This document shows positions 7,671-16,207 of a stretch of 64,000 nucleotides of DNA, one piece after another. The stretch is from assembly GCA_040219085.1 (NCBI GenBank), contig JAVJTC010000031.1:1-64000 (forward strand). Direction: 5' to 3'. The notes beneath the pieces are model-generated. The model ran no database searches. It saw nothing but the letters and a program-made list of their open reading frames with translations, and had not been told where the DNA came from. The translations under genes and the position numbers were made by a program. The stretch comes from Acidimicrobiales bacterium. GTDB taxonomy: Bacteria > Actinomycetota > Acidimicrobiia > Acidimicrobiales > JAVJTC01. The stretch's first letter is position 1. The number at the start of each line of letters is the position of its first letter.

Positions 7671-9062
7671 CTAACCGTGCTCAGAGGGGTGGAGCTCCCC
7701 CGGCTGTTCGGCGGGGAAGTCGACGGTGACCTCCAGTCCACCATCGGGACCGTCGCCCAGGCTCAGGCCGCCTCCCGAGGCCGTCGCGAGGCTCGTTGCG
7801 ATGGCGAGGCCGAGGCCGGTGCCGGGGCGGTTCGTGTCGCCGCGCCAGAAGCGTCGCAGCGCGCGCGCCTTGTCGTCGTCGGTCAGGCCGGGTCCCTGGT
7901 CGGTAACGACGAGGCTGTGCTCTTCGACGCCGGGGTGGATGGACACGGTGACGGTGGTACCCGCGGGCGAGATGTCCACCGCGTTGTCCAGCACGTTGTC
8001 GAGGATCTGTTCGATCGCACCGGGGACGGCCATGACCATCAGGGACGGCTGATCGGACTGCAGCGCGAGGCGGACGTCGGCTCCCTCGGCCACGGCGCTC
8101 CAGGTGTCGACCCTCTCGGCGGCGATGGCGGCGAGGTCGTGAGGGACAGATGTGTCGTGACGGTCGGCGCGGGCGAGCTGCAACAGGTCGGTCACGAGGG
8201 TCGACAGGCGGGTGATCTCCTCGATAGCCGCTTCGATCTGCGCCCCGTCGGTGGTGCCGTCGGGGTCGGCCTGGAGGTTCTCGAGTCTGAGTCGGAGCCC
8301 CGTGAGGGGAGTGCGGAGCTGGTGTGAGGCGTCGGCGACGAAGGCCCGCTGTTCGTCGATCATCGCCGCGAGCTGCCGTGCCATCGTCGACATGGTCTCG
8401 GAGAGCTCGCGGAGCTCGGGTGGTCCTTCTGCGGCGGCCGGCTCGATACTGAGGTCTCCGCTGCCGAAGCGACGGGCGGTGGCGTTGAGGCGGCGCAGTG
8501 GCAATGTCACGGAACGGGCGATGAGCCAGCCGACCAGGCCCATCGCGGCGAGGACCACGAGACCGATGCTCGCGAGTCCCCACCAGAAGCGGTGTACGTG
8601 TTCATCCACCTCGGAGGTGTCGAGGGTGATCCGCAGGGCGCCGTGCACGGTGCCGCTCGACGCGACGGGTACCGCGACATAGAGCAGTTCGGTGCCGAGG
8701 GTCTCCGACGGGCGCGTGCCCGTGGAGCGTTCGCCCGTGAGAGCGGTGGCGATCTCCGGGCGTGTCGCGAAGTCCCGGGGGGCCGGTTGGCCGGTGTCGA
8801 CGACGGAGATCCCTCGTGCGTCGACCACGACGACCCGCGCTCCCGTCCGCGCTTCGTAGCGCTGCGCGGGGAGTGGGTCGGGGGTGCGCCCTGCCTCGAG
8901 GTCGTCCTCGTAGATGGAGGCGATGACCGATGCGTCGCGCTCGACGTCGGCGGTGAGGCGTTCGAGTTCCCGTTGGGCGTAGAAGACGGCGAACGGCACT
9001 TCGAGAAGGACCAGGACGACGACGGTGATCGCCAGGTAGCTGACCACGAGACGTCTGGTCAT
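7671..9062 (-). CDS. Membrane sensor histidine kinase (HAMP-HisKA-HATPase)
   Basis: The 463-residue kinase starts at the ATG at 9062, which overlaps the response-regulator stop by ATGA. It has a first membrane helix (about residues 5-27), an extracytoplasmic sensor of roughly 130 residues, a second membrane helix (WWGLASIGLVVLAAMG), a HAMP linker, then the H-box ASHQLRTPL near residue 245. The HATPase domain shows an N-box (NVLDNAVD), G1 (DQGPGL) and G2 (GTGLGLAI). It should phosphorylate the OmpR-type regulator upstream. The divergent ApbE/ferric-reductase operon 112 bp from the regulator is the obvious candidate target, suggesting an envelope redox or metal signal; this is inference. Confidence 0.88.
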   Translation of the reverse strand: MTRRLVVSYLAITVVVLVLLEVPFAVFYAQRELERLTADVERDASVIASIYEDDLEAGRTPDPLPAQRYEARTGARVVVVDARGISVVDTGQPAPRDFATRPEIATALTGERSTGTRPSETLGTELLYVAVPVASSGTVHGALRITLDTSEVDEHVHRFWWGLASIGLVVLAAMGLVGWLIARSVTLPLRRLNATARRFGSGDLSIEPAAAEGPPELRELSETMSTMARQLAAMIDEQRAFVADASHQLRTPLTGLRLRLENLQADPDGTTDGAQIEAAIEEITRLSTLVTDLLQLARADRHDTSVPHDLAAIAAERVDTWSAVAEGADVRLALQSDQPSLMVMAVPGAIEQILDNVLDNAVDISPAGTTVTVSIHPGVEEHSLVVTDQGPGLTDDDKARALRRFWRGDTNRPGTGLGLAIATSLATASGGGLSLGDGPDGGLEVTVDFPAEQPGELHPSEHG

Positions 9063-9733
9063 GGAGGATCGGTGGGGAGCTCGACCAGTCGGTAGCCGAC
9101 CGATCGGACGGTCTCGATCAGATCGGGGAGCAGCTTCTTGCGCAGTGATGCGACGTGGACGTCGAGCGTCTTCGTCGATCCCCACCAGTGCTCGTCCCAC
9201 ACGTCGTGGATGAGCTGTTCGCGGCTGCGGACGGCGCCGGCATCGGAGGCGAGGAACACGAGGAGGTCGTACTCCTTGGGCGTGAGCTCGACATGGTCAC
9301 CCGCGAACTCCACGGTCCTGCTGCGTTGGTCGATGTGTAGCGGTCCGACGACAAGTTCATCTGTGGTGTGGGAACTCTCCGTCGAGTTGGCGCGGCGGGT
9401 GACCGCCCGGATCCTGGCGACGAGTTCACGGAAGCCGAACGGCTTGACGACGTAGTCGTCGGCGCCGAGTTCGAGGAGCATGACACGGTCGATCTCGTCG
9501 CCGCGGGCCGAGACCACGATGATCGGCACGCTGGTCGTCGATCGGAGCCGCTGACACACGACGCGTCCCTCGAGGTCGGGAAGACCGAGGTCGAGCAGTA
9601 CCAGATCGACAGGCGTAGCAGCCAGCGCCTCGGCGCCGGTCGCCGCCACCTCGACCTCGAATCCCTCGCGGGTGAGGCCGTCCCGCAGCGGCCCCGAGAT
9701 CGACGGATCGTCTTCCACGACCAGGATTCTCAT
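9059..9733 (-). CDS. OmpR/PhoB-family response regulator
   Basis: A 224-residue regulator with a receiver domain (acidic pocket VVEDD, phospho-acceptor Asp48 in LLDLGLPD, Lys in VVKPFGF) and a C-terminal winged helix (ELTPKEYDLL to TVRSVGYRL). I start at MRILVVED (9733); the longer frame adds nine non-conserved residues. It is the first gene of a two-gene operon with the histidine kinase, overlapping it by four bases. The 111-bp divergent region to 9845 is probably where it binds, controlling both itself and the exported-protein/ApbE operon. Confidence 0.88.
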   Translation of the reverse strand: MRILVVEDDPSISGPLRDGLTREGFEVEVAATGAEALAATPVDLVLLDLGLPDLEGRVVCQRLRSTTSVPIIVVSARGDEIDRVMLLELGADDYVVKPFGFRELVARIRAVTRRANSTESSHTTDELVVGPLHIDQRSRTVEFAGDHVELTPKEYDLLVFLASDAGAVRSREQLIHDVWDEHWWGSTKTLDVHVASLRKKLLPDLIETVRSVGYRLVELPTDPP

Positions 9734-9844
9734 GGCGAGAGCATGCCGCGGCCCCGACATGGCCGACAGGGCAGACGGTCATCTTTGCCAAACGCTTACC
9801 TCCGGCTGGCCACCCTCTGGTGGGCACGTCTCTACGTTGAGCAC

Positions 9845-10480
9845 ATGACTTCTCCACAGCCCTCAAAGCCCACCGGATGGTTCTCGGGCCGCACACGGCT
9901 CGTCACGATCGTGTCCGTCTTCGCGGTCGTCCTCGCCGGTGCGACAGCCGTCAGCGCCAACATCGGCATCCTCGACAACGCATCCGACAGTCCGGTCGGG
10001 AACGTCTCGGCCGCCGGCGACCTGACGACGCCCTCCGCGCAGGTGGTCGACGTCTACCTCCCGGACACTTCCGCGGCCGAGCCGTCGACGTCCACGTCGG
10101 TCGCCGACGCGGACGGCGTGCAGGAATTCGCCGTCGACACCGCCGGGACCGTCGCGGTCGCGACGACGGATGCCGGAGTGCGTCTCGAGTGGGTGGCGCC
10201 GGCACCCGGTTGGAGCTGGAACCTCGCACAGAGCGACCCGTCAACGTTGACGGTCACCATGACCGACGGGTCGCGGGCCCTCGACTTCACCGCTGTCTCG
10301 AACGCCGACGGCACCATCACGGCGAGCGTGAGCGAGCGGGCGGGTGCACCCGTGGCCGCTACCACCCCCTACGACGACGATCACGACGATGAGTACGACG
10401 ACGAGCACGACGACGAGTACGACGACTACGAGGACGAGTACGAACACAGAGAGTACGAAGGGCGTGAGGACGATGACTGA
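9845..10480 (+). CDS. Exported protein with Asp/Glu/His/Tyr-rich C-terminal tail
   Basis: No family recognised. The 211-residue protein has a short basic N-terminus and one hydrophobic segment (about residues 20-38, LVTIVSVFAVVLAGATA), then a small, probably beta-rich extracytoplasmic domain (about 85-165). It ends in roughly 35 residues made almost only of Asp, Glu, His, Tyr and Arg. The tail looks like a cation- or metal-binding extension. I start at the ATG at 9845 because it leads straight into the export signal; the frame upstream is antisense to the response regulator. It overlaps the next gene by eight bases and heads the operon that ends in ApbE and the ferric-reductase-like cytochrome. 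Confidence 0.65.
   Translation: MTSPQPSKPTGWFSGRTRLVTIVSVFAVVLAGATAVSANIGILDNASDSPVGNVSAAGDLTTPSAQVVDVYLPDTSAAEPSTSTSVADADGVQEFAVDTAGTVAVATTDAGVRLEWVAPAPGWSWNLAQSDPSTLTVTMTDGSRALDFTAVSNADGTITASVSERAGAPVAATTPYDDDHDDEYDDEHDDEYDDYEDEYEHREYEGREDDD
10372..10477 (+). repeat. Low-complexity GAC/GAG/TAC codon repeat encoding the acidic tail
   Basis: The DNA is an imperfect tandem array of GACGACGA-type units with interspersed CAC and TAC codons, encoding repeats such as DDEYDDEHDDEY. It lies at the 3' end of the exported-protein gene. Such arrays can expand or contract by slippage, so tail length may vary between strains. Confidence 0.7.
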
Positions 10481-10949
10481 GCCGGCTTCTCATCGGGCAC
10501 GGGTCGAAGAGCTGCAGCGACGCAGGGCCCAGTCGTCCCGCTCCGGTGGCGAGGGACAGCCGGCCGGCACCGGACGCTCCACAGGGGCGCGACGCGAGGG
10601 TGCCGCTCAGCGGTCCAAGATCGCTGCGGCAGGTTTCGGCTTCGCCGCCATGCTCGGTCTCGTCGCCGCCCTGGGTTACGCGAACCGGGAGACGTCCTCG
10701 TCTGCGCAGCCCCTGATCACGACGCCGGCCACTCCCGCCCAGGTGGTGGTCGTCATCCACCCCGCCGACGCGACGGACGCGGCCACTGTCGTCGGAGGAA
10801 CGTCGGAAGCTGTGCCGGCATCGCCAGGCCAGCCGATCGTGTTGAGCGCAGAGCCGGCGGTCCGGCAGGCCAGCGTGGCCCAGGCCCCGACGGTTCGTCA
10901 GGCCCCCGTGTCGCAGGCGCCGACGGGGCAGACCAATGGCAGTCGCTGA
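10473..10949 (+). CDS. Single-pass membrane protein with Pro/Val/Gln-rich tail, unknown function
   Basis: The 158-residue protein has a charged cytoplasmic N-terminus (about 50 residues, EELQRRRAQSSRS), one membrane helix (about 55-72, AGFGFAAMLGLVAALGY), and an extracytoplasmic part that ends in short repeats: RQASVAQAPT, RQAPVSQAPT. I know no family for it. Its start overlaps the preceding gene by eight bases and its end overlaps ApbE by 14 bases, so it is co-translated with the flavinylation/ferric-reductase genes. I looked for an ApbE flavinylation motif ([S/T]GA[S/T]) and did not find one, so there is no evidence that it carries FMN. Confidence 0.6.
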   Translation: MTEPASHRARVEELQRRRAQSSRSGGEGQPAGTGRSTGARREGAAQRSKIAAAGFGFAAMLGLVAALGYANRETSSSAQPLITTPATPAQVVVVIHPADATDAATVVGGTSEAVPASPGQPIVLSAEPAVRQASVAQAPTVRQAPVSQAPTGQTNGSR

Positions 10950-11913
10950 GATCCACAGCCGGGTGATGGCCAGCCGGCTGCATCTCATCGCCTCAGACCC
11001 GACCGACGGCGGGCCGGCCGGTCGAGTCGATGCAGCTCTGAGGGATGTCGTCTCCTACCTACGCCACCTCGAGGATCGCTGGAGCAGGTTCATCCCCACC
11101 AGCGACATCAGCCGCATCAACGCACTCGGTCCGACCGGCGGTGGAGTGCTCAGCGTCGACCCGTCGACGTTGACCCTGTTGGGGGCGATGATCGAGGGCT
11201 ACCAGGTGACCGCGGGTCGGTTCGACCCGACCGTGTTGAGGGCCGTCATCGCCGAGGGGTACTCCGCCAGTCACCTCGACCCAGACCTTGTGTGCCAGGT
11301 GCCTGCGGCGACGATGTGGGCGTCGGCGTCACTGCACGACCTGGAACTCGACCCGTGCGCGAACACCGTGACGGTCCCGGCCGGCCTCGTCGTCGACCCC
11401 GGAGGCATCGGCAAGGGTCTGGCGGCCGACCTCGCGGTCGCCCGCCTCCTCGACGCCGGCGTGGCCGGGGCAATGGTCGAGATCGGAGGAGACCTCGCGA
11501 TGGGTGGCGTGCCGGTCGACCCCGCCGGCTGGCTGGTAGACGTCGAGCACCCCGATCCCGCCGACGGGCTGCTCTGCGCTCTCGCCATCAGCGGCGGAGG
11601 CGTCGCAACGTCGAGCACCCGCTCGCGTCGCTGGACACGTGACGGCGTCGAACGCCATCACCAGATCGACCCGGTCACCGAGCGGTCCTCGTCGACCGAT
11701 CTCGACGCTGTCACGGTCATCGCCTCAGCAGCGTGGCTGGCCGAGGTGCACGCCACCGCCGCACTCGCGGCAGGCTCCGGCGATGCCGTCGCCTACCTGG
11801 ACGGACATGGACTCAGTGGAATCGCCGTCCCACGGGCCTCGGCCGGATGCAGCGTCCTGAGCACCGGTGATCTCGCCGGGATCGACATGCGGCCACGGAG
11901 CGGTGCGCGATGA
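10936..11913 (+). CDS. apbE: FAD:protein FMN transferase (ApbE family)
   Basis: The 325-residue ApbE protein transfers FMN from FAD to a Ser/Thr of a target protein in the envelope. Family motifs are present: DPGGIGKGLAAD, VEIGGDLAMGG, GGGVATSSTRSRRW, HHQIDP, and DAVTVIASAAWLAEVHATAA with the magnesium-binding region. No signal peptide is evident, so it may act before export or from the cytoplasmic face. It overlaps its upstream neighbour by 14 bases and the ferric-reductase-like gene by ATGA. ApbE usually sits beside an FMN_bind-domain substrate, but none is present in this operon, so its target is unknown. Confidence 0.88.
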   Translation: MAVAEIHSRVMASRLHLIASDPTDGGPAGRVDAALRDVVSYLRHLEDRWSRFIPTSDISRINALGPTGGGVLSVDPSTLTLLGAMIEGYQVTAGRFDPTVLRAVIAEGYSASHLDPDLVCQVPAATMWASASLHDLELDPCANTVTVPAGLVVDPGGIGKGLAADLAVARLLDAGVAGAMVEIGGDLAMGGVPVDPAGWLVDVEHPDPADGLLCALAISGGGVATSSTRSRRWTRDGVERHHQIDPVTERSSSTDLDAVTVIASAAWLAEVHATAALAAGSGDAVAYLDGHGLSGIAVPRASAGCSVLSTGDLAGIDMRPRSGAR

Positions 11914-12524
11914 ATCCGGAGTTCTGGTGGTACCTCACGCGCTCGTCGGGGATGATCGCCTGGCTGATGCTCACCGCGTCGGTGATCTGGGGAATCCTCC
12001 TCTCCACGAAGGCGTTCCCCAACCATCGGCATCCGACCTGGCTACTGGCGATGCACCGTTGGCTGGCCGGGCTCACGATGTCGTTCCTCGCGATCCACCT
12101 GGCGTCCCTGGTCGCCGACAGCTACGTGTCGTTCGGACTCGCGGATCTCGCCGTCCCCTACGCGTCTGAATGGAAGCCCGGGGCCGTCGCTCTCGGGGTC
12201 CTCGGCATGTGGCTCCTCGTCGCGGTGCAACTGACCTCGTTGGCGATGCGACGCCTCCCGCGTCGCTTCTGGCGGGTCGTGCACCTCACCAGCTACCTGG
12301 CGTTCTGGCTCACGAGCATGCACGCCGCCTTCGCCGGGACCGACTCCACCTCGTGGCTGTACCGGGGCGGCGCAGCGGCCTCGATCCTCGCCGTCGCCTT
12401 CGCGCTCATGTACCGGGTGGCGAATCGACGAGCGGTGCGTCGCGCCGAACGGTCGGCCTCCGCACGGGACGCCGTTCCTGTGAACACGGCCATCTCCGAC
12501 GGCTCCGTCTCCACTGGCCCTTAG
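11910..12524 (+). CDS. Ferric-reductase-like transmembrane cytochrome (MsrQ/YedZ-like)
   Basis: A 204-residue integral membrane protein of about five or six helices with paired histidines suited to two b-type hemes: LLAMHRW and LAIHLAS on one side, RVVHLTS and TSMHAAF on the other. This is the ferric_reduct fold shared by YedZ/MsrQ and actinobacterial ferric-reductase-like proteins. It should move electrons from a cytoplasmic or quinone donor across the membrane. No C-terminal FAD/NAD(P)H domain is attached, so an external donor is needed. It is the last gene of the ApbE operon. A flavinylated partner would be expected but is not visible. Confidence 0.8.
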   Translation: MNPEFWWYLTRSSGMIAWLMLTASVIWGILLSTKAFPNHRHPTWLLAMHRWLAGLTMSFLAIHLASLVADSYVSFGLADLAVPYASEWKPGAVALGVLGMWLLVAVQLTSLAMRRLPRRFWRVVHLTSYLAFWLTSMHAAFAGTDSTSWLYRGGAAASILAVAFALMYRVANRRAVRRAERSASARDAVPVNTAISDGSVSTGP

Positions 12525-12604
12525 GGTTCCGATCGCGCTCGACCGACGGTGCGGAAGGTAGAACGTCTCGATGCCCGTCGGACATGGAGTCATAGATCGC
12601 TCCC

Positions 12605-12784
12605 GTGCTCGCCGGGGGCGTCGTGGAGCCTGACACCGTGCTGCTCCTCGCCGGTGCAGGTGTCGCCGCGGGAGGGATCAACGCGATCGCCGGTGGTGGC
12701 TCACTCGTCACGTTCCCGGCGCTCGTGGCCTCGGGCCTGCCGACGCTCGACGCGAACGTGACCAACACGGTGGCCGTCTGGGGG
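12605..12784 (+). pseudogene. Remnant of a TauE/SafE (TSUP) membrane transporter, N-terminus only
   Basis: A GTG at 12605 opens about 60 codons that match the N-terminus of TSUP/sulfite-exporter proteins: AGVAAGGINAIAGGGSLVT, then VASGLPTLDANVTNTVAVW. After that Trp the similarity stops abruptly and the frame becomes Gly/Pro/Arg-rich sequence running into the hairpin at 12832 and the ABC permease 3' end. The remaining roughly 190 residues and most membrane helices are missing, so this is a deletion remnant. Confidence 0.7.
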
Positions 12785-12831
12785 ACGTCCTCCCCCCACG
12801 GTGGGACGGGTCGACCGGTAACGGACGCGAC

Positions 12832-12863
12832 CCTGGCCACCCGGCTGTCGCCGGGTGGCCAGG
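12832..12863 (-). terminator. Strong GC hairpin downstream of the ABC exporter operon
   Basis: A perfect 13-bp inverted repeat (arms 12832-12844 and 12851-12863) with a 6-nt loop lies 31 bp past the permease stop at 12894. There is no T run, which is usual for GC-rich actinobacterial terminators. It also caps the TSUP remnant from the other side. Confidence 0.65.
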
Positions 12864-12893
12864 AAGGGGCGGGACTTCGGTCCCGGGCGCCGT

Positions 12894-15377
12894 TCAGGCG
12901 GACCGGACGGCGTCGAGGACAGCGATACGGGCGGCTCTCCGGGCCGGGAGAGCCGCGGCGATCGTTCCTGCGAGCAGGGCGCCCACGGTGACAGCGACCA
13001 GGGCGCCGGCCGGGACGACGGGCGATGCGAGCCCGTCGTCGACGAGCGTCGTGAGCAGCGCCCAGGTGAACCCGATGCCCATCGCCATGCCGAGCAGCGT
13101 GCCGAACAGCGCGATCGCGATGGACTCGAGCCGGATGGACCGACGCAGCTGCCGTCGACTCATGCCGACCGCCCGCAAGACCCCGAGTTCACGGGTGCGC
13201 TCGTGGACCGACAACCCGACGGTCGTCGCGATCCCCAGCACGGCGATCACCACGGCCAGGCCGAGGAAGCCGAGCACCACGGTCAGCACCATGTCGAGCG
13301 AGCCCGCAAGCGAAGCTGCGTATCCGTCGACGGTGTCCACCGTCACCGTCGGAGCGGTGGACAGAATCGACTCGACCGTGGCAAGTGCGTCGGATGGGGC
13401 GTCGACGAAGACCAGGCGATCGAGGTCATCGCCGTGGGGGGCCACCGTGTCGTAGGGGGCGATCACGGGTGGTAGGGCGGTGGTCTCCTCGAAGATGGCT
13501 CCCACCACGGCCAACTGGGATACCCCGTCGGCGAAGGTCATCTCGACCGTGTCACCGACCGACCAGCCCCGATCCTCTGCCACACGATCGCCGATCGCGA
13601 GCCCCGCTGGACCGAGGTCACCATCGACCAGGTTCAGGCGGATCATTCCGGTCGCCGCCGGGAGGTCCAGTCCGGCGACGTCGGCCGCCTCGCCGTCGAG
13701 CAGTGCCATCGTGATCTGCATGGGCACGGCTCTCACGTCGTCGAGAGCGTCGATCGAACCGGCGATGCCAGTCGGGAACCCGGGGTTCATGCCAACCGGT
13801 CGTAGCACCTGATCGGCCGTCAACACGTCGTCGACGTCGCCACTCAACGTCGCCTTGGCCGTCGAGGCGAACATCGAGGCACCGACGACCAACATCACGC
13901 CGATCGTCAGTGCTGCGGCGGTGGCGGCTGACCTTCTCGGGTTCCGTGTCGCGTTGGCCGCGGCCAGTCGGCCGCTGGCGCCGAGTCGGCGCATCGGCAC
14001 CGCGAGCGCGCCGGTGACCGGGCGAACGAGCACCGGACCCAGCGCAAGCACGGCGAGCAACGTTGCGAGACTGCCGAGGCCCACGGTCGAGGCGGCACCC
14101 CCAGAGGCGCCGCTGACGAGCGCAGCGATGCCGGCGACTCCGAGCGCGGAACCGATGGCGACCCGTCGGCGGGACGTGTCGAGACGCTCGATGCTCGCGT
14201 CCCGCATGGCGTCGACCGGAGCGACCGAAGCGGCCCGTCGAGCGGGCACGACCGCGGCAGCGACGGTGACGACGATGCCGGCCGCCATCGAGACGGCAAC
14301 GGTCGAGGGAGCCACGATCAGTGCTCGGGACGGGAACTCCAGCCCGGTCGCGCTGAAGACCTTCGTGAGAGCGGTGGCCACCCCGAGGCCGGCGACGAGA
14401 CCCAGCGCGGCGGCGACGGCGCCGAGAATTCCGGCCTCGAGGAAGACGGAACCGAGCACCTGGCGCCGGCTCGCTCCGATGGCCCGGACGAGGGCGAGTT
14501 CCCTGGTGCGCTGGGCGATGGTGATTGTGAACGTGTTGGCGATCGTGAACGAACCGACGAACAACGCGATCGCACCGAAGGCCAAGAGCACGGTCTCGAT
14601 CAGCTCGATCGAGTCGTCGACCTCGTTCTGCAACTCGTCGACGAACTCGGAACCCGACAGGACCTGGGCGTCCGGGGTCGCAGCCGAGATGGCGGTGGCG
14701 AGTTCGGCCTCGGTCGTGGTGTCGTCGGCGCCGACGAGGATCCAGTCGACGGCCCCGGGCTCGGCGAGCCGGGTGGCAGCGTCGCTGTCGTGGAAGAAGG
14801 CGAACGCCGTGTCGCCGAGCGAGCTGCCCCCGTCGAGTTCGGAGAGCCCGACGATCCTGAAGGACTCACGACCTGCGACCGTGATCAGGTCCACGGTGTC
14901 GCCCACGTCGAGTTCGGCGTGGTCCGCCGTGTCCGAGTCGAGGACGACCTCGCCGCCGGAGCGTGGAGCGGTGCCGTCGACGAGGTGGAACATCGTGAGG
15001 TCCGGGTCGGCGATCCAGTTCAATCCGACGCTCTGGCGCAGATCGAGTGCCTTCCCGTCCGCCCCGATGACCTGTGCGTACCCCTCCCAGTAGGGAGCCG
15101 CGGTGCGGACCCCGTCGATCGAGCGGACCGTCTCCAGAGTGTCGAACGGAACGGTCGCACGAGGGGAGAAGGAGTCATCGGGGTCGAGTCGGTCGCCGCG
15201 CACGACCGCGTCCACGCCCTCGCCGAGGTCGTCGATGGTGGACGAGAACGACGCGGACATCGTGTCCGCGAGGATCATCGTCCCCGCGGTGAAGGCCACG
15301 CCGAGAACGATCGCGATGGCGGTGGTGAGGAGTCGGAGCTTCTTGGCGAGCAGTGAGCGTAGGGAGAGGCGGAACAT
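12894..15377 (-). CDS. ABC transporter permease, two FtsX/MacB-type modules
   Basis: The 827-residue permease has an N-terminal membrane helix (about 15-37), a large extracytoplasmic MacB-type core, three helices with the FtsX signature (about 270-390, including QRTRELALVRAIGASRRQ), then a second copy of the same layout ending in VHERTRELGVLRAVGMSRR and three more helices. This duplicated architecture is typical of actinobacterial MacB-like mechanotransducing or lipid/peptide exporters. The ATG follows an AAGGATCC site. It is encoded 41 bp downstream of its ATPase and divergent from a NarL-type two-component system, an arrangement typical of antimicrobial-peptide or envelope-stress exporters. 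Substrate unknown. Confidence 0.85.
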   Translation of the reverse strand: MFRLSLRSLLAKKLRLLTTAIAIVLGVAFTAGTMILADTMSASFSSTIDDLGEGVDAVVRGDRLDPDDSFSPRATVPFDTLETVRSIDGVRTAAPYWEGYAQVIGADGKALDLRQSVGLNWIADPDLTMFHLVDGTAPRSGGEVVLDSDTADHAELDVGDTVDLITVAGRESFRIVGLSELDGGSSLGDTAFAFFHDSDAATRLAEPGAVDWILVGADDTTTEAELATAISAATPDAQVLSGSEFVDELQNEVDDSIELIETVLLAFGAIALFVGSFTIANTFTITIAQRTRELALVRAIGASRRQVLGSVFLEAGILGAVAAALGLVAGLGVATALTKVFSATGLEFPSRALIVAPSTVAVSMAAGIVVTVAAAVVPARRAASVAPVDAMRDASIERLDTSRRRVAIGSALGVAGIAALVSGASGGAASTVGLGSLATLLAVLALGPVLVRPVTGALAVPMRRLGASGRLAAANATRNPRRSAATAAALTIGVMLVVGASMFASTAKATLSGDVDDVLTADQVLRPVGMNPGFPTGIAGSIDALDDVRAVPMQITMALLDGEAADVAGLDLPAATGMIRLNLVDGDLGPAGLAIGDRVAEDRGWSVGDTVEMTFADGVSQLAVVGAIFEETTALPPVIAPYDTVAPHGDDLDRLVFVDAPSDALATVESILSTAPTVTVDTVDGYAASLAGSLDMVLTVVLGFLGLAVVIAVLGIATTVGLSVHERTRELGVLRAVGMSRRQLRRSIRLESIAIALFGTLLGMAMGIGFTWALLTTLVDDGLASPVVPAGALVAVTVGALLAGTIAAALPARRAARIAVLDAVRSA

Positions 15378-15418
15378 GGTGGATCCTTCGTCGATGTGTG
15401 GGTGGAGAAGAAAGGTGG

Positions 15419-16207
15419 TCAGTTGCCGAGCCGCTTCATGCGGTCGAGCACCTGGTCAGGGCTGGGCGAGGACATCGCGTCGACGATGCGGCCGTCGGCG
15501 AGGAAGACGATGCGGTCCGCGTAGGAAGCGGCGACCGGATCGTGGGTGACCATGACGACCGTCTGGCCGAGTTCGCGCACGGCGGATCGGAGAAACGACA
15601 GCACCTCGGCGCCGGCGTGGCTGTCGAGATTCCCGGTCGGTTCGTCACCGAAGATGATCTCGGGTCGGTTGATGAGCGCGCGGGCGACGGCGACACGCTG
15701 TTGCTGACCGCCCGACAGTTCGGCCGGGCGGTGCCGGAGGCGGGAGCTGAGACCCACGGTCGAGACGACCATGTCGAACCAGTCGCGGTCGACCTTGCGG
15801 CCCGCAAGGTCGACGGGCAACACGATGTTCTCACCGGCGGTCAGGCTCGGCACCAGGTTGAACGCCTGGAAGATGAAGCCGATCTTGTCGCGCCGCAGGC
15901 GGGTCAGTTCCTTGTCGGACAGCGTCGACATCTCGACGCCGCCGATGTACACGCTTCCCGACGACACCGCGTCGAGACCGGCGACGGTCTGCATCAGGGT
16001 CGACTTCCCTGATCCGGATGGGCCCATGATGGCGGTGAAGCGACCACGCTCGAAGGACACGGTCACGCCGGCGAGGGCGTGCACGACCGCGGCGCCGGTG
16101 CCGTACGTCTTGACGACTTCCACTGCTTCGGCGGCGGCGACAGACGCCGTCGTGGAGGGCGGCGGGGGAAGCGTGGATGCACCTGGGTGGGTCGAGGTGA
16201 GCGACAT
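15419..16207 (-). CDS. ABC transporter ATP-binding protein (MacB/LolD type)
   Basis: The 262-residue ATPase has Walker A GPSGSGKST, Q-loop FIFQAFNLVPSLT, signature ELSGGQQQRVAVARAL, Walker B IIFGDEPTGNLD and the H-loop MVTHDP. The QAFNLVPSLTA and TGNLD features place it with the LolD/MacB exporter ATPases. I use the ATG at 16207 because of the AAGGAGATCC ribosome site; the frame continues upstream but is not conserved. It has a 30-residue Pro/Ser/Thr-rich N-terminal leader ahead of the domain. It pairs with the FtsX-type permease and is divergent from the histidine kinase/response regulator at 16390-18272. Confidence 0.9.
   Translation of the reverse strand: MSLTSTHPGASTLPPPPSTTASVAAAEAVEVVKTYGTGAAVVHALAGVTVSFERGRFTAIMGPSGSGKSTLMQTVAGLDAVSSGSVYIGGVEMSTLSDKELTRLRRDKIGFIFQAFNLVPSLTAGENIVLPVDLAGRKVDRDWFDMVVSTVGLSSRLRHRPAELSGGQQQRVAVARALINRPEIIFGDEPTGNLDSHAGAEVLSFLRSAVRELGQTVVMVTHDPVAASYADRIVFLADGRIVDAMSSPSPDQVLDRMKRLGN

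Follow-up and report, generated by a model that had tools for sequence, protein, structure and literature searches.

The question raised by this locus is which protein receives the flavin of an ApbE enzyme that stands without a recognised partner. The locus lies at 9845–12524 of a 64,000-nucleotide stretch (hereafter the window) of contig JAVJTC010000031.1 from an Acidimicrobiales bacterium (assembly GCA_040219085.1). It consists of four consecutive genes: open reading frame 1 (ORF1), ORF2, apbE, which encodes a flavin adenine dinucleotide (FAD):protein flavin mononucleotide (FMN) transferase, and the gene of an MsrQ-like bis-heme transmembrane cytochrome (Table 1). A preliminary description of this DNA had named ApbE, a bis-heme cytochrome and two envelope proteins, one of them acidic-tailed, and all four genes were found at that place. 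It had also reported the absence of the flavinylation motif [S/T]GA[S/T], and no literal [ST]GA[ST] occurred in any of the four proteins. Its view that no FMN-carrying target is visible is probably wrong, as ORF2 carries a conserved [ST]-x-[GA]-S end, present in the window as the near-motif T-N-G-S. ORF2 is probably the 'missing' ApbE target, with the conserved serine end as the attachment site, in this bacterium and in many relatives. That ApbE flavinylates the C-terminal serine of ORF2 (Ser157 here), which would give a tethered FMN arm, is a reading held with moderate confidence. Computation shows which genes form the set, that the tag is conserved and linked to one ApbE type, that the topology is biased, and that no other known ApbE substrate family among those tested was found in the genome.

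ApbE partners in the host genome

No Pfam family exceeded its cut-off for ORF1 or ORF2, and neither protein matched FMN_bind (PF04205) up to an E-value of 1 in the Pfam scan. The host genome, whose assembly is 96.4% complete, gave no match to FMN_bind, DUF2271, NQR2/RnfD (NqrB/RnfD) or DUF3570, flavodoxin- and FMN_red-type substrates lying outside this search. An FMN_bind gene is typical, though not strictly defining, for MsrQ-like clusters; none was present in the operon or the genome. The classic FMN_bind partner that the preliminary description had allowed for elsewhere in the genome, as sole ApbE target, was not found, and its proposal of a variant extracytoplasmic electron-transfer set is supported by an ApbE that has no FMN_bind protein in operon or genome.

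Two ApbEs could be found in the host genome, each inside an operon of this kind. The paralogous operon (L001/L047) had an identical layout, with 40% identity between the ApbEs and 45% between the cytochromes, while ORF1 and ORF2 showed no significant similarity to their counterparts. Since the fetched loci also contained 160 modules of ApbE plus cytochrome, the arrangement is not due to chance.

Conservation of the ORF2 C-terminal tag

The ORF2 counterparts were proteins of low complexity with a single membrane pass, and their [ST]-x-[GA]-S end resembles the ApbE site [ST]GA[ST]. Among 50 loci of the order, a set that includes two FMN_bind loci (L073 and L075), an [ST].[GA][ST] end with at most one trailing residue was present in 34. 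The strict pattern was formulated after these loci had been viewed; therefore, only the phylum-wide loci and the loci from named records test it independently. In the phylum-wide set, where 56 of the 60 loci came from outside the order, a first-choice rule for ORF2 gave the tag in 18 loci, or in 17 of the 40 with a cytochrome. For several of them this rule had taken ORF1, and the true ORF2 was tagged on closer look. A further 80 loci from named records were the best 80 of 241 relatives, a few of them duplicating order genomes.

Pooling yielded 160 ApbE plus cytochrome modules, of which 134 had an ORF2 candidate and 26 had none (several at contig ends); removal of 13 near-duplicates left 121 non-redundant ORF2s. 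The ORF2 was taken as the frame just upstream of apbE, chosen without using the last 12 residues, by a rule devised after the closer look at the phylum-wide picks, and residual wrong picks occur among the 121 (e.g., L140, L151, L161, and L250). The strict tag was present in 84 of these 121 ORF2s, compared to a mean of 5.0 and a maximum of 11 in linker shuffles. When up to five trailing residues were allowed, the count rose to 92, against 14.2 (maximum 25) in the shuffles. Interior positions of the same proteins matched the pattern at 3.2%, and among the remaining genes of these loci 12 of 822 had a strict-tag end, at least one of the 12 being itself an ORF2 (in L046, with the end PDTNSGGS).

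Alignment of the 84 tags on the last motif residue revealed Pro at −7 in 53, with V commonest at −6, T/A at −5, S/T at −3 and G/A at −1; the final position was Ser in all 84. Serine occurred within the last three residues in 102 of the 121 ORF2s, compared to 33.9 expected from linker composition, and exact TGAS and SGAS ends could be seen among the ORF2s of L052, L085, L147, and L237. In the isolate Desertimonas flava (L200), a relative for which no FMN_bind was found, the tag read ARTHGSR. In another group (L077, L086, and L087, also L061, L070, and L072), ORF2 ended with Cys motifs in place of the tag, for example CYTSPSGNVTCY, or ...KC and ...KPC; such ends look like a site displayed on a disulfide loop.

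Gene overlap and loci without adjacent apbE

The four genes of the window overlap by 8 nucleotides (ORF1/ORF2), 14 nucleotides (ORF2/apbE) and 4 nucleotides (apbE/cytochrome), and the apbE start codon falls within the codons of the ORF2 tag. A tag arising as a gene-overlap artefact, in which GTGGCAGCTGA-like apbE starts or Shine-Dalgarno sequences would force a ...GGS end on ORF2, has its best ground in the 41 of 121 cases where the apbE start can overlap the tag codons, the window included, since 37 of these were tagged. Where no such overlap is possible, however, the strict tag was still kept in 47 of 80 ORF2s, compared to 3.8 in shuffles (maximum 11). All 47 ended the motif with Ser, written in both Ser codon families (AGY 27, TCN 20), and the four-nucleotide Shine-Dalgarno core was missing in 36. 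Together with six tagged loci that have no adjacent apbE, these cases led to the by-product explanation being largely rejected, and we regard it as very improbable.

The six loci (L046, L049, L259, L260, L265, and L269) belong to 20 cytochrome loci without an adjacent same-strand apbE, and in each the gene immediately preceding that of the cytochrome is a tagged ORF2; L260 and L265 share one ORF2 end, to which those of L259 and L269 are similar. The five genomes concerned (G005 and G524–G527) each hold an ApbE elsewhere. No FMN_bind could be found in G005, G525, and G527. The FMN_bind genes of G524 and G526 lie on the same contigs as ApbEs of the split type described below, which leaves one unsplit ApbE over. 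One genome (G011) had a cytochrome without ApbE; its locus (L074) gave no ORF2 candidate.

Orphan ApbEs and two ApbE types in the order

Among the matches listed for 148 sampled genomes of the order, ApbE was present in 82, FMN_bind in 34, DUF2271 in 11 (10 over the cut-off) and the cytochrome in 64. An orphan-ApbE genome was defined as having ApbE but neither FMN_bind nor DUF2271 over the cut-off, in a screen that excludes DUF3570, NqrB/RnfD and flavodoxin/FMN_red substrates; G025, whose DUF2271 match is below the cut-off, was classed as orphan. In counts made from hand-compiled match lists, as were those of the ApbE types, all 39 orphan-ApbE genomes had the cytochrome, compared to 3 of 66 ApbE-less genomes (again among the matches listed). 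The strict tag was found in 24 of the 28 orphan genomes with an examined module, the other 11 of the 39 having none.

It is possible, though unlikely, that ApbE acts on an unrecognised substrate elsewhere, or serves as an FAD pyrophosphatase or FMN supplier while the operon uses free flavin. The assembly is 96.4% complete, families such as flavodoxin or FMN_red were outside the search, and a hydrolysing ApbE, Ftp, is known (PMC4767422). This alternative fits poorly with both host ApbEs sitting in operons of this kind and with the cytochrome in every listed orphan-ApbE genome, and it leaves the tag unexplained.

The ApbEs were of two types, with a split or an unsplit match to the Pfam model. 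Among the matches listed, FMN_bind lay within 1.6 kilobases of 32 of 34 split-type ApbEs and of none of 86 unsplit ones, a count from which around twelve ApbE rows with low scores or cut by contig ends are omitted; none of these, as far as listed, shares a contig with FMN_bind within that distance. Some genomes with DUF2271 contributed unsplit ApbEs. A FastTree tree built from 151 ApbEs placed all 11 FMN_bind-type rows to one side of a branch with support 75. In L073 and L075, an FMN_bind protein adjoins the homologous cytochrome and ApbE. Six loci (L134, L141, L143, L146, L148, and L168, for the last of which the gene caller returned nothing) had ApbE without cytochrome and with other upstream proteins, and stand outside the module counts. 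In L141 and L143, the protein encoded before this ApbE is secreted or resembles a lipoprotein and ends in an acidic stretch rich in Ser (SSDAS, SDSGQS); that of L141 also has an internal SGAT.

The ApbE enzyme and the topology of ORF2

The window ApbE scored 155.9 bits against the Pfam ApbE cut-off of 25.6 and was matched by 13 distinct PDB sequences. The catalytic residues of the V. cholerae enzyme are S241, H257 and D285 (PMC12052999). By motif, with 1vrm and 4xdt rather than the V. cholerae enzyme as the alignment references, the window ApbE kept S226 and H242 and had E270 in place of the Asp. In the FMN_bind-type rows, Asp occupied this position in 8 of 11. Judged from the alignments, the active sites of the two ApbE types differ by this replacement of Asp with Glu or Asn.

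No hydrophobic N-terminus, and hence no signal peptide, could be detected in 120 of the 121 ApbEs of the set, and among the matches listed 0 of 8 FMN_bind-type ApbEs of the same lineage passed the threshold for one. The charge bias of ORF2 pointed to an inner N-terminus and an outer C-terminus, the N-flank being more positive in 89 of 92 proteins (mean charge +5.6 compared to −0.6). The ORF2 tip was 45–211 residues (median 80.5) away from the membrane helix.

The cytochrome and ORF1

In an alignment of 14 cytochromes, H49, H63, H125 and H138 were invariant, as expected for a bis-heme protein, and two heme sites are predicted from these four His. In two relatives (L079 and L080) a NuoF-like protein, of the kind that binds reduced nicotinamide adenine dinucleotide (NADH), lies downstream of the cytochrome, joined in L080 by a 4Fe-4S ferredoxin-like protein; these neighbours are likely a cytosolic electron input.

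The last 41 residues of ORF1 contain 15 D, 9 E, 6 Y and 3 H. An acidic-tailed ORF1 was found in 76 of the 121 modules by a loose rule that includes some wrong picks (e.g., L156). Its beta domain (residues 91–160) was predicted with a pLDDT (predicted local distance difference test score) of about 94–97. The fold search pointed to no clear structural relative, with no PDB match at E ≤0.001 (best 0.24) and a best VIA-align Z of 6.7. ORF1 ended in Asp-Asp in 68 of the 76 acidic-tailed picks because its stop overlies the ORF2 start (GATGACTGA and variants); a functional role for the conserved ...DD was dropped, being explained by this overlap. The conserved overlap of ORF1 and ORF2 suggests translational coupling.

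One of these two proteins could also take the FMN itself; ApbE would then flavinylate the cytochrome (Ser86 or Ser110) or ORF1, and the tag would be a signal that serves docking or localisation, be it to the cytochrome, to ApbE or for export. We consider this doubtful, though somewhat less so than a substrate elsewhere. S86 and S110 are invariant in the 14 cytochromes, the tag differs from the known motif at two positions, and it can adjoin a cytochrome gene without apbE. Neither serine, however, lies in an [ST]GA[ST]-like context, and the tag resembles the ApbE site, some members ending exactly so. ORF1 was rejected as FMN carrier, as no near-invariant extracytoplasmic Ser/Thr could be found in 22 sequences. 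Its single near-invariant Thr (T21) lies N-terminal to the helix, and its beta domain is reduced or missing in L036, L203, and L241, which also counts against such a role.

Weighing of ORF2 as a candidate flavin carrier

Several observations weigh against the flavinylation of ORF2. The known ApbE motif is D-x-x-[ST]-G-A-[ST] (PMC12052999), and the ORF2 tag lacks its Asp and its fixed Gly. ApbE prefers Thr as the site residue (PMC12052999), and the tag residue is always Ser. The strict tag was missing in 37 of the 121 ORF2s, in 4 of the 28 examined orphan genomes (G038, G073, G089, and G108) and in the paralogous ORF2 of the window genome itself, which ends in TTQPSG. A tagged ORF2 was also missing in 14 of the 20 cytochrome loci without adjacent apbE, 11 having another upstream frame and 3 no candidate. 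The tag-adjacent ApbEs retained the catalytic Ser and His, but the position of the usual catalytic Asp held Glu in 85 and Asn in 8 of 97. The tag would be extracytoplasmic by charge bias and ApbE carries no signal peptide; therefore, FMN addition would be required before export. Finally, the tag of the window overlaps the apbE start and is therefore partly constrained there. Within the known motif, exchange of Asp to Ala had minor effects, and exchanges of Gly to Ala and Ala to Val left about 50% flavinylation (PMC12052999). In favour of ORF2, engineered seven-residue flavin tags perform best at protein ends (PMC12052999).

Proposed mechanism

Flavinylation, electron flow, the acceptor and regulation are what we infer from this evidence. 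The operon would be an MsrQ-like transmembrane electron-transfer unit in which ORF2 stands in for the usual FMN_bind protein. ORF2 would form a one-helix anchor with its N-terminus inside and a flexible outer arm tipped by the ApbE recognition tag [ST]-x-[GA]-S, to the serine of which (Ser157 here) ApbE would move FMN from FAD. The bis-heme cytochrome would draw electrons from the membrane or the cytosol, the source being quinol, or NADH in the relatives with the NuoF-like protein (L079 and L080), and feed them to the tethered FMN at the ORF2 tip, which would reduce an external acceptor. A metal-ion acceptor may be collected or held by the acidic/His tail of ORF1. Metal reduction by the operon is plausible; iron as the acceptor is a guess, made because some MsrQ-like clusters are reportedly linked to the iron transporter VIT1 (PMC8238504), and no transporter was seen in the operon of the window. 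Adjacency was the sole link seen between the divergent two-component pair and the operon.

A wider and distinctly more tentative proposal sees in ORF2 a flavin tag of natural origin. The carrier would consist of nothing more than the C-terminal peptide on its disordered arm; it would be charged with FMN by the signal-less ApbE as ORF2 is completed (the two genes often overlap) and exported pre-loaded. As a tether it would start at the cytochrome and reach into the cell wall, and there the acidic tail of ORF1 would present a metal acceptor. Such a tag would explain the majority of orphan apbE genes in Acidimicrobiia and related Actinomycetota.

The locus offers a concrete candidate substrate class that recurs in the sampled Acidimicrobiia and relatives and has one residue to mutate. 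Should the proposal hold, a flavin carrier can do without a flavin-binding fold, and a helix, a linker and a short end are enough for an electron tether. ApbE would then have diverged within a single lineage into two types that differ in specificity, a division that could be put to use in orthogonal flavin tagging.

Genomic context of the operon

A PF01794 protein adjoins apbE, the arrangement by which MsrQ-like clusters are recognised. A promoter and terminator scan of 9700–12950 found none. The short frame behind the operon aligned to the TauE/SafE exporter family over no more than the first 50 of that family's 237 positions (27.1 bits, below the cut-off of 32.6; E 4.2e-6) and is probably the remnant of a broken TauE/SafE gene. 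The permease and ATPase genes that follow adjoin the operon with no sign of membership.

Table 1. Coordinates of the operon genes and neighbouring features in the window
Feature	Position	Strand	Description
ORF1	9845–10480	+	211 amino acids; N-terminal transmembrane helix, small beta domain, acidic D/E/H/Y C-terminal tail
ORF2	10473–10949	+	158 amino acids; basic N-terminus, one transmembrane helix, Pro/Ala-rich linker, tag TNGSR; proposed FMN carrier
Ser157 codon (AGT) of ORF2	10941–10943	+	last conserved Ser of the tag; proposed flavinylation site
ApbE (FAD:protein FMN transferase)	10936–11913	+	325 amino acids; Pfam ApbE 1.9e-45; no signal peptide
MsrQ-like bis-heme transmembrane cytochrome	11910–12524	+	204 amino acids; Ferric_reduct 6.3e-8
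OmpR-type response regulator, divergent	9059–9760	-	Pfam Response_reg and Trans_reg_C
Sensor histidine kinase, divergent	7671–9062	-	Pfam HATPase_c, HisKA and HAMP; start at the Met of MTRRLVV
Frame with partial TauE/SafE match	12605–12991	+	128 amino acids
FtsX/MacB-type permease and ABC (ATP-binding cassette) ATPase	12894–16132	-	

Comparison with known systems

In a 2021 survey, 4% of the genomes had ApbE but no known substrate, the substrates being described there as still unidentified (PMC8238504). No report of a carrier made of a transmembrane helix, a linker and a terminal tag was found in the open-access literature; the search did not extend to papers behind subscription, preprints or supplementary material such as Supplementary file 1 of that survey. 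We class the operon as a variant MsrQ-like flavinylation system that brings in a candidate new class of ApbE substrate. It shares with the MsrQ-like clusters (Meheust et al. 2021, PMC8238504) the Ferric_reduct/MsrQ-like cytochrome and ApbE, and in some relatives (L079 and L080) also the NuoF-like partner. Those clusters typically contain a gene with an FMN-binding domain, whereas here a terminal-tagged ORF2 is found instead, together with an acidic-tailed ORF1. The DUF2271 and DUF3570 proteins are ApbE substrates in genomes without FMN_bind (PMC8238504), but they are folded domains with an internal [ST]GA[ST], while ORF2 has no known domain and a degenerate C-terminal tag. Flavinylated FMN_red proteins (Huang et al. 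2024, PMC11334425) likewise bear the motif on an unstructured C-terminal extension; it stands there beside a flavin-binding domain, and none was recognised in ORF2. There is also a likeness in form to the engineered flavin-tag (Tong et al. 2021, via PMC12052999), in which a short end peptide is sufficient for ApbE. That tag is man-made, and ORF2 would be its natural counterpart with a different consensus.

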